This document shows, one piece after another, positions 2,051 to 55,689 of a DNA stretch of 55,689 nucleotides. The DNA is from Candidatus Methanophagaceae archaeon GoMg1 (GTDB lineage Archaea; Halobacteriota; Syntropharchaeia; Alkanophagales; Methanospirareceae), in the NCBI GenBank assembly GCA_013180605.1, contig QBUL01000187.1, positions 1 to 55,689 of the forward strand, read 5' to 3'. Position numbers and translations under genes: made by a program. The notes under the pieces are model-generated. The model made no database searches. It saw nothing but the letters and a program-made list of their open reading frames with translations, and was not told where the DNA came from. Within the stretch, counting starts at the first letter, position 1; the number at the start of each line of letters is the position of its first letter.

Positions 2051-3070
2051 TCATTTCACCACGCTCAAAACCTTACTCGTCAGCTCATCGCAATACCTGC
2101 ATTCATCGCATATCTTTTTGCACCGTTTCCATTGTTTTATGCTGCCATCCAGGAGTTTGTTATCCAGGTAAAACGTATAGCTGAGTTCGGAAGGGCAATC
2201 AAGAAGTTCAAGCAGGTTTCCTTTAAATGACCGTCGTGAGTATGCCGTCATGCAATTTATTATCCAGTTCACCGTGTTTGCTCTACCCGCAATCTTGAAT
2301 TTTTCTATCCCTATCTCCTCGTATTCCTTCATATCCTCGGGTCTTATCCACGGCGACCTTATGATCTCCGATGGCTGTCGCATGCGAATGGATATGCACT
2401 TATCGAAATAGTAGTCGCCAAAGGTATTCAGTGGCTGGTTCCGTGCATTCAAAAAAGAAGATCGGGGGGTGGTTATGTGCGAGAAGAGGTTGAAATGCGC
2501 ATACCGAAACGGGCACTTATAAAGACAGGCTTCGTTCACAAGTATTCGGATGTCGCAATTCACGGCTCTCAGTATTGCTTCTAATGTTTGGAAGTCCCTG
2601 TTGATGTTCGTGTCCACCGTGATTGTATCGGCACCCAGGTCCTCAAAGAATTCAGCACGCTGCGGTGAATCTACATGCGCTACACACGAAACAACCGTCT
2701 CCATCGGGAACTCCTTCAAAAGCTCAATTAGATACGGCTCTGCCACGGTAATACCATCAACATCCGCCTTATTCAATTCCCCAAAGTACCACTCAAACAC
2801 CTTATAACCCTCGAAGGTAAGGTGATAACCGCCCAGGCATGATGCATTTATCACAATGTTCATCTTTATGTCGTGCTGATGCGCATAAGCAGTCTGCTCT
2901 TTTATCTCTTCAATAACCGCTCCGTGGAGCATCGCTCTTCCGCTGCCTACCACTTCTGGAGAGCCCGCCATGTAAACCTCATATACGTCTTTCAAACCCG
3001 CTGCTTCTTTTGTTTCTATTATCTCCTTCAATGCGGGGAAATGACCCGGATGCGGGACTATCACTTTCAT
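2051..3070 (-). CDS. Peptidase U32 family protein (second of a tandem pair)
   Basis: 339 residues, homologous over its length to the preceding gene. U32-family features: an alpha/beta barrel start (PHPGHFPALKEII), the central NEACLYKCPFRYAHFN cysteine motif, a DKC cysteine and a C-terminal CKKICDECRYC cluster. In characterised U32 relatives (UbiU/UbiV, TrhP, RlhA) conserved cysteines hold a 4Fe-4S cluster and the proteins act in hydroxylation of quinones or RNA, not proteolysis. By analogy this is probably an Fe-S protein; substrate unknown. Its ATG overlaps the stop of the upstream paralogue by 4 bases, so the pair is probably made together and may form a heterodimer as UbiU-UbiV does. Confidence 0.8.
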   Translation of the reverse strand: MKVIVPHPGHFPALKEIIETKEAAGLKDVYEVYMAGSPEVVGSGRAMLHGAVIEEIKEQTAYAHQHDIKMNIVINASCLGGYHLTFEGYKVFEWYFGELNKADVDGITVAEPYLIELLKEFPMETVVSCVAHVDSPQRAEFFEDLGADTITVDTNINRDFQTLEAILRAVNCDIRILVNEACLYKCPFRYAHFNLFSHITTPRSSFLNARNQPLNTFGDYYFDKCISIRMRQPSEIIRSPWIRPEDMKEYEEIGIEKFKIAGRANTVNWIINCMTAYSRRSFKGNLLELLDCPSELSYTFYLDNKLLDGSIKQWKRCKKICDECRYCDELTSKVLSVVK

Positions 3071-4074
3071 TTGATACTGGTCAATACCTCCTGTGTAAGT
3101 TTATCACAATATCCACATTCGTTACAGATTTTTTTACAGTTCTTCCATTGTTCTATGCTCCCCTCAAGCTTTCCGTTATCCACGTAAAACACGAACCTTA
3201 GCATTTGAGGGCAGTCCAGGAGTTCAAGCAAGTTCCCCTTGAACGACCTGTGAGAATACGCCTTCATGCACTCTATTATCCAGTTCACCGTTTTTGTCCT
3301 CCCGGAAAGCTTGAAGCTCTTTATCCCTATCGCTTCGTATTCCTTCACATCTTCGGGTCTTATCCACGGGGACTTTATTATCTGCGTGGGGTCTCTCAGA
3401 CGGATGTTTATGCATTTATCGAAATAGAAGTCGGGTGCGAATAGAGGAGAGCGAGGTTGGTTTAAACTGCTGAGATGCGAGGCGAGATTGTAGTGAAAAT
3501 ACCTGAAAGGACACCGGTAAAGGCAGCCTTCGTTCACTATTACCCTCACGTCACAGTTAACCGCTTTTACTATTGCTCTCAACAGCGGGAAATGACGGTT
3601 TATGTTCGTGTCTACCGTTATCACATCAGCCCCAAGGTCTTCAAAGAACTTAGCACGCTGTGGCGCATCAACATAAGACAAAACCGATACAATGGTTTTC
3701 ATCGGGAAATCGCGCAGAAGCTCCACGAGATAGGGCTCTGCCACTATAACACCGTCAACGTCTGCTTTATTCAACTCGCTGAAATACCACTTGAACATCT
3801 TATAGCCCTCGAAGGTCAGATGATGGCCCCCGAGACACGTGGAATTCATTACGATATTCATTTTTATATCGTGCTGATGCGCATATTCGGTTTGTTCCCT
3901 TATCTCATCAATAAGCGGTGCATGCAGTACTCCTCTTCCGCTTCCCATTACTTCCGGCGAGCCGCCCATGAACACCTCTTCCACTTCCTCTAATCCTTCT
4001 TCCAACTCTTTTGCTTCTATTATCTCCTTCAATGCGGAAAAATGCCCGGGATGCGGAACCATTAGCCTTGTCAT
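3067..4074 (-). CDS. Peptidase U32 family protein (first of a tandem pair)
   Basis: 335 residues from the ATG at 4074 (MTRLMVPHPGHF), which aligns with the start of its downstream paralogue. The frame remains open upstream to a micro-ORF at 4254 inside a repeat element, so a 60-residue N-terminal extension is possible but I judge it unlikely. Cysteines: NEGCLYRCPFRYFHYN, FDKC and the C-terminal CKKICNECGYC, as in the paralogue. Same inferred role: a U32-type Fe-S protein, perhaps an RNA or cofactor hydroxylase subunit. The duplication has kept all cysteine positions while surface regions have diverged, which argues for two working subunits. Confidence 0.8.
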   Translation of the reverse strand: MTRLMVPHPGHFSALKEIIEAKELEEGLEEVEEVFMGGSPEVMGSGRGVLHAPLIDEIREQTEYAHQHDIKMNIVMNSTCLGGHHLTFEGYKMFKWYFSELNKADVDGVIVAEPYLVELLRDFPMKTIVSVLSYVDAPQRAKFFEDLGADVITVDTNINRHFPLLRAIVKAVNCDVRVIVNEGCLYRCPFRYFHYNLASHLSSLNQPRSPLFAPDFYFDKCINIRLRDPTQIIKSPWIRPEDVKEYEAIGIKSFKLSGRTKTVNWIIECMKAYSHRSFKGNLLELLDCPQMLRFVFYVDNGKLEGSIEQWKNCKKICNECGYCDKLTQEVLTSIK

Positions 4075-4116: not shown

Positions 4117-4301
4117 ATTTTTTTCTTTTAGCACAAACCTTTTCTTAAGAAGAAAAGCTTTACCAAAAGAAGATGGAAAACTTTCTTTCACAAAGAAAGT
4201 TTTATCAACAACTTTTTTACCTTCGGTAAAAACCTTGACTAAAAATATTTCCATGTTTTTTCTTTTAGCACAGGTTTTCTTTTTTACAAAAAGAAAAAGT
4301 G
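4117..4301 (-). repeat. KVFTEGKKVV element, copy 1, with micro-ORF
   Basis: An A/T-skewed element between the divergent U32 and pyrF genes. Read on the minus strand it has a hairpin (CTTTTTCTTTTTG / AAAAGAAAAC), the box CCTGTGCTAAAAGAAAA, then a micro-ORF from ATG at 4254 encoding MEIFLVKVFTEGKKVV and more, then a second hairpin and box (GTGCTAAAAGAAAA). The same element occurs at 52948-53070 and, reduced to hairpin and box, at 55060-55106. The micro-ORF stays in frame into the U32 gene. Confidence 0.8.
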
Positions 4302-4303
4302 TT

Positions 4304-5023
4304 ATGGCAAAACTATTTCGAGAGACGCAAGGTGTAATCCCGGCGTGTGACGTAACCACGATAGAAGAATTCCAAACGTTAATTGAGCGGACATGCTCGA
4401 TTGAAGGAATCGTGGGATATAAGGTAGGGTGCACACTTGCGTTACGCTACGGATTACCGAAATTGGCGGAGATAGCAGCAGAGCAGACCGACTTGCCTGT
4501 GATATATGACCATCAAAAGGCAGGCACGGACATACCGGCGATGGGGGCTAAATTCGCAGAGGTGTGCGCAAAAGCAGGTGTAAAAGTCGTTATTATTTTC
4601 CCGATGGCGGGTCCTGCCACCGAGAAAGCGTTTATCGAAGCCGCATTTAAAAACGGGTTGGTTCCCTGGGTGGGCGGTGAAATGACACATGAGAAGTACC
4701 TGCATAGAGAAGGGGGATTTATTAACGCTGATGCACCAAAAAAGATATACAAAATCGCAGCAGAATGCGGTGTGGAATATTTCGTAGCTCCTGGAAGCAA
4801 ACCCGGTATTGTTGCGGAATACAATCGTTTCCTATCGGAAATCGTGAACGAGCCGAAGTTTTGCATGCCCGGGATTGGTTCACAGGGTGGTGCGATAAGC
4901 AAAGCTTTTGAAGCAGTAAAAGGTAAAGAAGCGTATGCTATTATAGGGTCTGCGATATACAAAAGCAGGGATATAGAGGGTGCGGCGAGAAGGTTTTGCA
5001 AGGAGGCAATGGCGTTCTTATAA
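4304..5023 (+). CDS. pyrF: Orotidine 5'-phosphate decarboxylase, atypical archaeal type
   Basis: 239 residues from ATG at 4304. Catalyses the last step of UMP synthesis, OMP to UMP plus CO2. The catalytic Asp-Lys-Asp set of the family appears as YDHQKAGTDIP (D69, K72, D76), a spacing variant of the common DxKxxD motif; a phosphate-binding loop is seen near the C-terminus as PGIGSQGG. The frame is open further upstream (from 4235), but that part lies inside the repeat element, and the chosen ATG fits the family start. The start codon lies 2 bases from the hairpin end of the repeat, the same arrangement as the gene at 55058. Confidence 0.8.
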   Translation: MAKLFRETQGVIPACDVTTIEEFQTLIERTCSIEGIVGYKVGCTLALRYGLPKLAEIAAEQTDLPVIYDHQKAGTDIPAMGAKFAEVCAKAGVKVVIIFPMAGPATEKAFIEAAFKNGLVPWVGGEMTHEKYLHREGGFINADAPKKIYKIAAECGVEYFVAPGSKPGIVAEYNRFLSEIVNEPKFCMPGIGSQGGAISKAFEAVKGKEAYAIIGSAIYKSRDIEGAARRFCKEAMAFL

Positions 5024-51956: not shown

Positions 51957-52923
51957 TTATTTATTATAACACTTACTAATAGGATATGAAAAACCGCAAA
52001 TGTTACAATGGAAGCAATTTTTTGGCATTCCCGCCTTGCATAGCGGACATACATTCGCCTTTACCTTCGGCTTTGGAACTTCATCCACAACCTCTTTATA
52101 TATCTCGTAGAAGAAGAGATGCTCTTTATTCATGAATTCCATCTCATATTCTCTTTTCTTCGCATCGAACTCAGCATCCGAGATTTTCAAAGCGATAATA
52201 TCCCGTAGCTTTGTTGTTCCAGAACCGAACTCTATCGGTTCTTTTTCTCTCCATGCTACCTCACCCAATTCTTTTTCATACGCCTTTCTTAATATCCATT
52301 TCCCATATTTTCTCCCTTTTATTTCCTTTACCTTCAAGTCTGGACTCATATCGAGAGCGAATTCAACAATTTCTTTATCAAGATACGGCTGTTTTATCTT
52401 CACACCGAGAAAATCACCAAGTTTGTTAGAGGAGAAATACATCGTTTTTGAAAGATTTATTATGTATTTATTCAACTCTTTGTGTGAGAGTTCGTGCATG
52501 TAAGAATAACCAGCAAAAAGCTCGTCTGCACCATCTCCGGTCATTACGCTTTCTATTCCTAAATTCTTTGCTTCTTTTATTGCCACGTAGATAGCCAAAT
52601 CATTGGGAAGAGCAGGATCAAAACTTCTGACCGCTTTTATCACATTCCCAGATTTTTTCTAATGCTTCATTTTCTGCTATGCGGATCAAATGATGCTCAT
52701 AAAGGAACCTCTGAGCCATCCTTTTTGCATATTCAAGGTCAGGAGCAGGAGTTCCTGCTAAGGATACCGTAAGTGCTTTCTTGTTTCTTCCAGCGTCTTT
52801 AGAAACGGCAGCTAAAATGCTCGTGTCTAATCCGCCAGAAAGTAGCAATGCCTCTGCAGCGTTTCTCTCAACAGCGTCACTTAATAGTTCTCTTAGCCTG
52901 CTGCATACCTCCTCTTCTTTCAT
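51957..52923 (-). pseudogene. Asparagine-synthase-like (PP-loop) protein, single-base frameshift
   Basis: The N-terminal part (52923 to ~52645) carries LLLSGGLDTSILAAVSKDAG (PP-loop) and RMAQRFLYEHHLIRIAENEA; the C-terminal part from ~52640 in the next frame carries IKAVRSFDPALPNDLAIYVA, MTGDGADELFAGYSYM and a zinc-like tail (CPLCKAGMP, FHCNICGF). Joining ...LEKIWE to VIKAVRSF restores a continuous asparagine-synthase C-domain of ~320 residues, needing one base removed at about 52642. Sequencing error, recent mutation or programmed shift cannot be told apart. The glutaminase domain of AsnB is absent; such proteins amidate other substrates. Confidence 0.75.
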
Positions 52924-53108
52924 GAGTTAACCACGAGATTACACAACACTTTTTCTTTTTTGCAAAAAGAAAACCTGTGCTAAAAGAAAAACTATGGAAC
53001 TATTTTTAGTCAAGGTTTTTACCGAAGGTAAAAAAGTTGTTGGTAAAGCTTTTCTTTCTAATAAAAAGTTTCTCGTGAAATCTCGCGGTTCATTATTTGC
53101 AATTTATT
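52924..53108. repeat. AACCACGAGATTACACA repeat split by a KVFTEGKKVV element
   Basis: TTAACCACGAGATTACACAA (52927-52946) and TCTCGTGAAATCTCGCGGTT with CATTATTTGCAATTTATTAC (to 53108) match the two arms of the repeat at 50693. Between them (52948-53070) lies the KVFTEGKKVV element, copy 2. Confidence 0.75.
52948..53070 (+). repeat. KVFTEGKKVV element, copy 2
   Basis: Hairpin CTTTTTCTTTTTTGCAAAAAGAAAA (stem TTTTCTTTTT / AAAAAGAAAA), box CCTGTGCTAAAAGAAAA, then the micro-ORF starting ATG at 52994. Inverted relative to copy 1 and nested in another repeat. Confidence 0.8.
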
Positions 53109-53137
53109 ACTGGAATGACTATAATACGACAAGATGA
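52994..53137 (+). CDS. KVFTEGKKVV micro-ORF, 47 residues
   Basis: Encodes MELFLVKVFTEGKKVVGKAF, LSNKKFLVKSRGS and ends in YYWNDYNTTR. The first 16 residues match the micro-ORF at 4254 (MEIFLVKVFTEGKKVV). Its stop TGA overlaps the ATG of the UPF0280 gene (ATGA). Whether it is translated is unknown; conservation of the first part in two otherwise diverged copies is the reason to list it. Confidence 0.4.
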   Translation: MELFLVKVFTEGKKVVGKAFLSNKKFLVKSRGSLFAIYYWNDYNTTR

Positions 53138-53867: not shown

Positions 53868-54046
53868 TTGTTGACACAGATCAACGCAGATTAACACAGA
53901 TGAAACGAGCAAAGCCAATGCCACATTCCAAAATTTACCGCAGAGAACGCGGAATTAGAGGTTTCGTTTATTAGCGGTTCAGCTCGTTAGCTAAACCTCC
54001 AAACCGCTATCCTCTGTGAACTCTGCGGTTAATCTGACATCGTCAA
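53868..54046. repeat. Inverted copy of the composite GACGCAGATT/CCGCAGAG repeat
   Basis: GACACAGATCAACGCAGATT, AACACAGATGAAACGAGCAA, CCAATGCCACATTCCAAAAT, TTACCGCAGAGAACGCGG, and CTCTGTGAACTCTGCGGTTA. Reads as the inverse of 40936-41115, including the unique linker (GAAACGAGCAA..CCAATG.CACATT). Confidence 0.8.
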
Positions 54047-54047
54047 G

Positions 54048-55058
54048 TTATATCCTCAGCAGGGCAACTTCATTTTCGTCCAGCGGTGAAACAACTATTC
54101 TCTCTTTCCTTTGTTCTTGATCTCCGTGGAGTTCAGCCCCATGAAAGGGTTTATATTCCACTAATACTTCCTCTTTGGCACCCGCATCAGAATACCTCGC
54201 AGTCAATTTTGCTGCGACTTCAATCGCTTCTTTGCTCTTTTCACCTTCCAAAATCGTTATTGGGCTCCCGTAACCAAGCACCTCGAAAACATAATCCTCT
54301 GTGTTCTTCAAATCCAGTAAAAGCGTATTCTCTGCTTCATTTCTCCCTACTATTATTTTCGACGACCCGAACCGAAAATGCCTGCCTATTTTCAGTACTC
54401 TTACATCCCGCATCGTCACGCGTTCATTATGGTCGAACAAATCCCTCAGCTTAGATGCAAATTCGCGGTAGGTTAAGAGACAACCGCCAGAAGGAGTGGG
54501 GTACTCCTCTTCCAGAATGCCAAACTTCTTTGCAAGCGCAATCTGGGGCTTTCTGCTCTTTCCTTTTATATCCAGAAGCTTGCTCCTGTCCACCCAACCT
54601 TTTTGTTCCGGAATTGTTTCAGGGAGTAGTTTTGCGGATAGCGGTCTCAAAACCATTTTTTCCAATCCCGCTTCTTTTTCCTCGAGTTCCAATGCTTTCC
54701 TGTGCTGGCTCATGGGTCTTTCACCCAGAACATCGCCTGTAAAGATGAGATTGGCACCCACGTCTTTCGCAATCCGCTTCGCTTCTCGCAGCATATAAAT
54801 ATGACAATCTATACAGGGGTTCATCCCCGAGCCATAGCCATACTTAGGGTTTCGTACCATGTCAAGGTATTCTTCACCTGATTCTACCCGAACAAGCGGT
54901 ATCCCGAATTTCTTTGCCACCTCACCCGCATAATCCCTCTTCTCCGCAGTAACAGGCAAAATAAAAGTCACGGCTACAACCTCTATACCCTGGTCTAAGA
55001 CGAGCTTAGTCGCCAATATCGAATCTAAGCCGCCGGATAACAACGCTAACGCTTTCAT
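54048..55058 (-). CDS. PP-loop tRNA thiolation-like enzyme
   Basis: 336 residues. ATP-pyrophosphatase start MKALALLSGGLDSILATKLV (SGGLDS), then VRNPKYGYGSGMNPCIDCHI, YMLREAKRIAKDVGANLIF, and YPTPSGGCLLTYREFASKL, the paired cysteines (C102, C105; and C in SGGC) of MnmA/ThiI-like enzymes; DUF814-like C-terminal segment. Probably sulfurates a tRNA base; which one is not readable. Starts next to a hairpin of the KVFTEGKKVV element, the same arrangement as pyrF at 4304. Confidence 0.75.
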   Translation of the reverse strand: MKALALLSGGLDSILATKLVLDQGIEVVAVTFILPVTAEKRDYAGEVAKKFGIPLVRVESGEEYLDMVRNPKYGYGSGMNPCIDCHIYMLREAKRIAKDVGANLIFTGDVLGERPMSQHRKALELEEKEAGLEKMVLRPLSAKLLPETIPEQKGWVDRSKLLDIKGKSRKPQIALAKKFGILEEEYPTPSGGCLLTYREFASKLRDLFDHNERVTMRDVRVLKIGRHFRFGSSKIIVGRNEAENTLLLDLKNTEDYVFEVLGYGSPITILEGEKSKEAIEVAAKLTARYSDAGAKEEVLVEYKPFHGAELHGDQEQRKERIVVSPLDENEVALLRI

Positions 55059-55059
55059 T

Positions 55060-55106
55060 ACACTTTTTCTTTTTCATAAAAAGAAAACCTGTGCTAAAAG
55101 AAAAAA
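55060..55106 (+). repeat. KVFTEGKKVV element, copy 3 (hairpin and box only)
   Basis: TTTCTTTTT-CAT-AAAAAGAAA stem (perfect, 9 bp), then CCTGTGCTAAAAGAAAAAAC. The micro-ORF is lost: the frame after the box reads ATG TGT TTA G. Lies between divergent genes like copies 1 and 2. Confidence 0.75.
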
Positions 55107-55224: not shown

Positions 55225-55689
55225 ATGGACAAAGACGAGATTATCAGACAACTCAAACGTGAGAATGAGCTGCTTAAGGCACGCATAGAGGAATTCGAGG
55301 CCCAACTGGCTAGATATGAGAACCCGCATGCCCCTCCAAGCATGAGACGCGGTGGCAATAGCAGAAGGAATCAGAAGAAAGGGCACAAAGGGGTGACGAG
55401 ACAACGGGCAGAACCAGATAGGCCGGTAGAGGTCCGGATGGGTCGATGCCCGTACTGCGATGCCGAGCTTGGTGATCCGGTCAGCGTGGGATCGAAGATT
55501 ATCGAGGAGATCCCAGAACCACAACCAGTTATCGTCACCGAATACAAAATTGCACATTATACATGTCCCCGGTGTCATAGAGAAGTCGTTGCAAGCGATC
55601 CCGACTGCCCAAAAGAAGGCATATTCGGTAATAACACGATAGCACAAGCGACAGTGCTGAAATACGAGGAGCGGTTGCCACACCGTAAG
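55225..55689 (+). CDS. IS66-type transposase, N-terminal part, runs off the window
   Basis: 155 codons from ATG at 55225, no stop before the window end. N-terminal leucine-zipper-like coiled coil (ENELLKARIEEFEAQLARYE), a basic/proline segment (NPHAPPSMRRGGNSRRNQKK), and zinc-like motifs CPYCDAEL and CPRCHREV, matching the TnpC-type IS66 transposases. The left end of the insertion sequence is not clearly visible in the 165 bases before it, so the boundary is undetermined. Confidence 0.8.
   Translation, partial: MDKDEIIRQLKRENELLKARIEEFEAQLARYENPHAPPSMRRGGNSRRNQKKGHKGVTRQRAEPDRPVEVRMGRCPYCDAELGDPVSVGSKIIEEIPEPQPVIVTEYKIAHYTCPRCHREVVASDPDCPKEGIFGNNTIAQATVLKYEERLPHRK

Follow-up and report, generated by a model that had tools for sequence, protein, structure and literature searches.

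What kind of element is formed by a hairpin, a conserved box and a short open reading frame (ORF) that recur together between genes of Candidatus Methanophagaceae archaeon GoMg1: a mobile unit, a shared regulatory unit or a micro-protein family? We analyzed it in a stretch of 55,689 nt (contig QBUL01000187.1, positions 1 to 55,689; referred to as the window) and in related genomes. The original prediction listed three box-bearing copies, and all three were found in the window as claimed, with the box CCTGTGCTAAAAGAAAA located at 4258-4274 (minus strand), 52974-52990 (plus strand) and 55088-55104 (plus strand). However, a genome-wide search raised the number of copies from three to approximately 100. 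Allowing up to two mismatches, the box had 106 matches (54 + 52) in the 2.34-Mb window genome, while the reversed-pattern control had 1 + 0. The 3' arm of the hairpin, AAAAAGAAAAAGTGT, was matched 97 times versus 12 times for its control. Since most of the AAAAAGAAAAAGTGT matches carried the box at the expected position, we conclude that box and hairpin are a single unit of approximately 46 bp, which we named M1.

M1 is dispersed and restricted to one family, ANME-1/Methanophagales, to which the window genome belongs. The box was present in 32 of 35 sampled ANME-1/Methanophagales family genomes (1 to 99 matches each), in high numbers that differed between genera, and in none of 24 genomes from outside the family. 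Carriers of the motif among public genomes were mostly recorded as ANME-1 or Methanophagales, and a few matches, which may come from mislabelled bins, stood under other taxon names in the record titles. A longer exact M1 pattern matched no IMG/VR contig, which argued against a viral origin. In the literature on ANME-1 repeats, we found no description of such an element.

Copy 1 (4256-4302, plus strand) is flush with pyrF. It consists of the tracts H (4256-4266), Y (4275-4285) and R (4288-4299), with AG (4267-4268) and the linker GCACAGG between H and Y and a loop between Y and R, and its hairpin end GTGT (4299-4302) is separated by one base from the pyrF ATG at 4304. It is preceded by variable modules (4117-4255, plus strand), namely a second box (4121-4137), two hairpins and a hairpin named M2 (TTTTTACCTTCGGTAAAAA), the minus strand of which reads LVKVFTEGKKVV. 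In same-genus orthologues, these upstream modules were deleted, replaced or carried inserts. Copy 2 comprises hairpin and box (52946-52991, minus strand). Copy 3 (55060-55105, minus strand) has its hairpin end ACAC at 55060-55063, one base from the ATG (55056-55058) of a PP-loop/ThiI-like gene (55058 to 54048). It was proposed that the hairpin end lies close to the start codon of the divergent gene; this was correct for pyrF and the PP-loop gene, but copy 2 is approximately 23 nt from the asnB start, with another repeat in between. Several neighboring features were also observed. Two tandem U32 peptidase-like genes with about 71% DNA identity are located at 2051-4074, and the pair recurs in other family genomes. 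An asparagine synthetase-like gene (51957-52923) is apparently split by a frameshift into the ORFs 51957-52643 and 52618-52923. Positions 53919-54058 hold a different dispersed repeat (AGCGGTTCAGCTCGTTAGCTAAACCTCC...CTCTGCGGTTAATCTGACA) that is matched many times in family genomes. Beside copy 3, at 55227-55689, is what we take to be the start of an IS66-like transposase gene, which runs off the window end.

Since the micro-ORF was a central part of the original prediction, its coding potential was examined. As predicted, the frame is open in copies 1 and 2: in copy 1, it reaches the U32 start in frame after 60 residues (MEIFLVKVFTEGKKVV...MTRLMVPHPG), and in copy 2, it starts at 52994 and ends in ATGA at UPF0280. 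Beyond these two copies, neither a conserved frame and start nor purifying selection was found. Among 53 copies of the segment, 13 had a net frameshift and only 19 had an in-frame ATG followed by at least 15 open codons. Of the changes, a fraction of 0.19 was synonymous, compared to a uniform expectation of 0.22. The LVKVFTEGKKVV segment corresponds to the hairpin GGTTTTTACC-GAA-GGTAAAAA (about 53014-53035 in copy 2, within the M2 and M3 hairpins at 52994-53072, plus strand, which show frameshifts and no coding constraint). In three copies, the loop was inverted from GAA to TTC, and other M2-type copies carried a different double hairpin within the loop. Furthermore, the segment was conserved neither before U32 nor before UPF0280. 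Relatives of the same genus had it shortened or replaced at the pyrF site or lacked it there, and no micro-ORF preceded UPF0280 in any orthologue examined, so that a UPF0280 leader ORF was rejected. A mobile or shared micro-protein family derived from the LVKVFTEGKKVV ORF is thus highly improbable. Judged by its sequence, LVKVFTEGKKVV appears to be an accidental translation of the adjacent hairpin and not a gene. In addition, a G+C-rich double hairpin (AAGCCCTTACAGGGCTTGCGGGGTCGTGGGGCGGAGCCCCACATG) was noticed at four loci inside M2/M3 loops, as if it were loop-inserting.

The M1 unit itself is noncoding and has a defined anatomy. Written with the hairpin last, it reads H-AGCACAGG-Y-loop-R-TGT (TTTTTCTTTT-AGCACAGG-TTTTCTTTTT-nn-AAAAAGAAAAAG-TGT), where H is the 5' (Hoogsteen) pyrimidine tract, Y the Watson-Crick pyrimidine tract and R the purine tract; the complementary strand is Y-R-R'. 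A search with only the linker AGCACAGG fixed and pyrimidines on both sides found 96 places and revealed a second form, CTTTCTT-AGCACAGG-TTCTTTC with the purine arm GAAAGAAAG-TGT. Two more forms had the H/Y/R tracts TTTTCTT/TTCTTTT/AAAAGAAAG and TTTCTTT/TTTCTTT/AAAGAAAAG. The linker was constant across these four states, which were represented by 187 (A), 26 (B), 5 (B2) and 3 (C) copies; copy 1 belongs to subfamily A. H and Y were exact mirrors in 183 A, 26 B, 4 B2 and 2 C copies, and a parallel H-R run of at least 7 was detected in 180, 25, 4 and 2 copies, respectively (211 of 221 in total; median of 10 in A). Thus, all three tracts shift jointly between the subfamilies, with R matched by Y in antiparallel and by H in parallel orientation. 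Among the matches listed for non-A forms in 51 family genomes, 119 of 150 were exact H/Y mirrors, in three states. As copies of one form are not independent, the evidence for tract matching amounts to only about three independent changes. At five loci, an extra stem (TGCGAAGCAAATTTTCCGTAAAGGCTTTTGCTTGCAAAAGGG) in the M1 hairpin loop was observed, which lengthens the distance between box and gene.

Mirror repeats are not a product of ordinary copying, which yields direct or inverted repeats. An antiparallel H-R pairing, i.e., a rival hairpin, fits equally well in A and B, but in B2 H matches R at 7 of 7 positions in parallel and at 6 in antiparallel orientation, and therefore Hoogsteen pairing was favored. 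Some points count against a triplex. Triplexes of the Y motif that contain C are favored by low pH, although the M1 tracts hold only one or two C residues. A third tract was found upstream of 156 of 1,313 Y-R hairpins used as a control, and A/T-rich triplex motifs readily occur by chance (PMC4666352). The order H-Y-R on one strand corresponds to class IV of Holder et al. (PMC4666352). M1 has this tract order (class IV as written here, class II on the complement), with a third strand that is parallel and matched to R and a stem of at least 6 nt. Its H-Y linker AGCACAGG is 8 nt and exceeds the 1- to 6-nt loops searched by ITxF, a range that is a search setting and not a structural requirement; an earlier triplex-motif search accepted loops of 0 to 10 nt (PMC4666352).

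The closest known relatives of this kind are the PIT elements, BoxC and TMECO of Escherichia coli (Holder et al. 2015, PMC4666352). Like M1, they are short, highly conserved, high-copy intergenic elements without strand bias or a common gene function, they have three homopurine/homopyrimidine tracts on one strand, and their copy number is very unequal between close relatives. In contrast, TMECO is G/C rich and belongs to class II, whereas M1 is A/T rich, archaeal and divided into covarying subfamilies, with a constant 8-nt linker. Moreover, M1 is flush with borders of coding sequences (CDS), while TMECO has no preferred distance (10 to 310 nt).

This position was quantified using 158 copies, which were retrieved by motif and not by gene. 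The hairpin edge was within -2 to +2 nt of a CDS border, as defined by a simple ORF rule instead of a trained gene caller, in 44 copies (27 starts and 17 stops). For the box edge, this applied to only 2 copies, and for random intergenic control points to 57 of 4,000 (1.4%). Although orthologous flush copies are not independent, the effect was already visible in the window genome alone (about 16 of 58 copies). An ATG directly followed the hairpin edge (gap of 0 to 1 nt) in 29 unbiased copies, and 28 of these ATGs head an ORF of at least 61 amino acids. Stop codons at or beside the M1 junction were also seen, with empty orthologous sites for comparison. The flush genes encode PyrF, a ThiI-like protein, a PurQ-like amidotransferase, EPSP synthase, MutL, a TIM-barrel protein, a MobA-like protein and a TRM5-type methyltransferase. 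They have no common function, and a metabolite-specific riboswitch was therefore rejected. The proposal that copies lie between divergent genes holds for the three window copies but for only 18 of the 124 intergenic copies; the others lie between convergent (34) or tandem (72) genes. Likewise, the copies are not always upstream of genes: overall, the intergenic copies favored neither gene starts nor gene ends nor divergent spacers.

These data bear on the possibility that M1 is a cis-regulatory 5' leader or a bidirectional terminator, in which two pyrimidine tracts would alternately pair with one purine tract, and U-rich tracts and the hairpin at the AUG would govern how the flush gene is transcribed or translated. 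The copies with a flush ATG argue for it, as do the position at pyrF and the PP-loop gene, which is retained in different genera despite changed upstream DNA, and the TATA-like sequence that precedes the composite at pyrF and mobA. However, stop codons are abutted as well, the genes are functionally unrelated and no overall strand or gene-side bias is seen. Furthermore, M1 was lost before the same gene in close relatives, and it matched no described RNA family in Rfam. We therefore regard a leader or terminator as quite unlikely in general, while the idea of a regulatory unit, which lacks support as one shared by the copies, may still apply to single genes. A conserved tail (TTATTACTGGAATGACTATAAAT) with the TATA-like CTATAAAT was observed beside the composite at 53106-53126 in the window and at many other loci; it is possibly a dispersed promoter.

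The prediction of a dispersed, probably mobile unit was supported by the copy number and family restriction described above, and also by the surroundings of M1. In 63 of the 158 copies, the hairpin side continues into TGTGTAATCTTGTGGTTA-like sequence, and 47 of these 63 embedded copies have an inverted counterpart on the box side (background, 5%). Thus, about 30% of the copies (47 of 158) lie in composites bounded by inverted AACCACRAGATTACACA repeats; the flush copies are mostly without them. Copy 2 of the window is part of one of these composites (52929-53090), with the left repeat AACCACGAGATTACACA at 52929-52945 (plus strand) and the right repeat at 53073-53090 (minus strand, reading AACCGCGAGATTTCACGA). 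This insert is missing from the asnB-UPF0280 spacer of three relatives. The bounded composite and the insert-free relatives support mobility. M1 also occurs in mosaics with other hairpin modules.

Accordingly, M1 could be an ordinary nonautonomous mobile repeat, similar to MITEs or REP/BIMEs, with hairpins recognized by an enzyme and an incidental third tract. Its high copy number that varies between genera, the flanking inverted repeats, the insertion polymorphism and the mosaics are in line with this. With MITEs, M1 shares its noncoding and dispersed nature, the inverted repeats around some copies and the presence or absence between relatives, and with REP/BIMEs the mosaic of short extragenic palindromes with other modules. 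Unlike MITEs, M1 has no terminal inverted repeats of its own and many copies lie outside bounded composites; neither a target duplication nor a partner transposase was established, the transposases checked being of the Y1 type only. Unlike REP, M1 shows no GTAG/CGTC tag and has a third tract and a linker in addition, and the M1 hairpin is absent from Y1 transposase loci of the genus. An IS200/IS605-type partner was rejected, because the window genome had only fragmentary Y1 transposase matches, with no M1 hairpin at those loci, and no matching autonomous element was found. The H/Y mirror maintained through four states is unexplained by copying and unneeded by a hairpin-binding enzyme. Taken as the full explanation, an ordinary mobile repeat is unlikely.

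Comparison of relatives revealed both age and turnover. M1 is located directly before the pyrF ATG in genera g1, g2, g7 and g14 and is missing there in g4 and g13. At the PP-loop gene, a flush copy was present in g1, g7 and a single g14 genome; elsewhere, remnants or nothing were found. At seven other genes, copies were kept, eroded or missing within the genus, and the DNA on the box side was freely rebuilt between relatives. Flush copies were thus kept at orthologous genes across genera.

Together, these data make it probable that M1 is a noncoding, dispersed intergenic element of ANME-1 with matched tracts that can fold into an intrastrand triplex. A single M1 strand exposed during replication, repair or transcription would adopt a Y-motif triplex of class IV (class II on the complement). 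M1 may have spread partly as cargo of AACCACRAGATTACACA-bounded composites moved by some enzyme, and partly together with duplicated neighboring hairpin modules. Insertion or triplex-provoked breakage would then lead to loss of flanking noncoding DNA on the hairpin side only, and this one-sided deletion would halt where the next loss would harm a gene, leaving a flush edge. It is unusual that the flush edge meets start codons as well as stop codons, and this suggests that some process trims intergenic DNA. Since start and stop codons are both recognizable only to selection on the coding sequence, we favor erosion over targeting; a deletion ratchet is the most likely source of the flush edge. 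Small intergenic changes and deletions around triplex motifs were described in E. coli (PMC4666352), which would fit M1 erosion by analogy but is no proof of it. At pyrF and the PP-loop gene, M1 has been conserved for longer than is predicted for a purely selfish repeat, which counts against this explanation.

While the kind of element is known from E. coli, M1 is an A/T-rich, archaeal, covarying repeat in flush position that would form an intrastrand triplex. Stable triplexes in vivo are unsupported in E. coli (PMC4666352), and joint changes of all three tracts, as seen across four subfamilies, are the kind of evolutionary evidence needed on this question. The constant M1 skeleton makes it testable using short oligonucleotides. 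For annotation of ANME-1 genomes, the repeats should not be called genes, and genes should not be extended through them, as in the U32 ORF of copy 1. ANME-1 archaea are key methane oxidizers of which there are no pure cultures. It is conceivable, although doubtful, that in these living archaea selection preserves an intrastrand triplex, and that this structure erodes its flank up to the coding border and thereby sets intergenic length family-wide.
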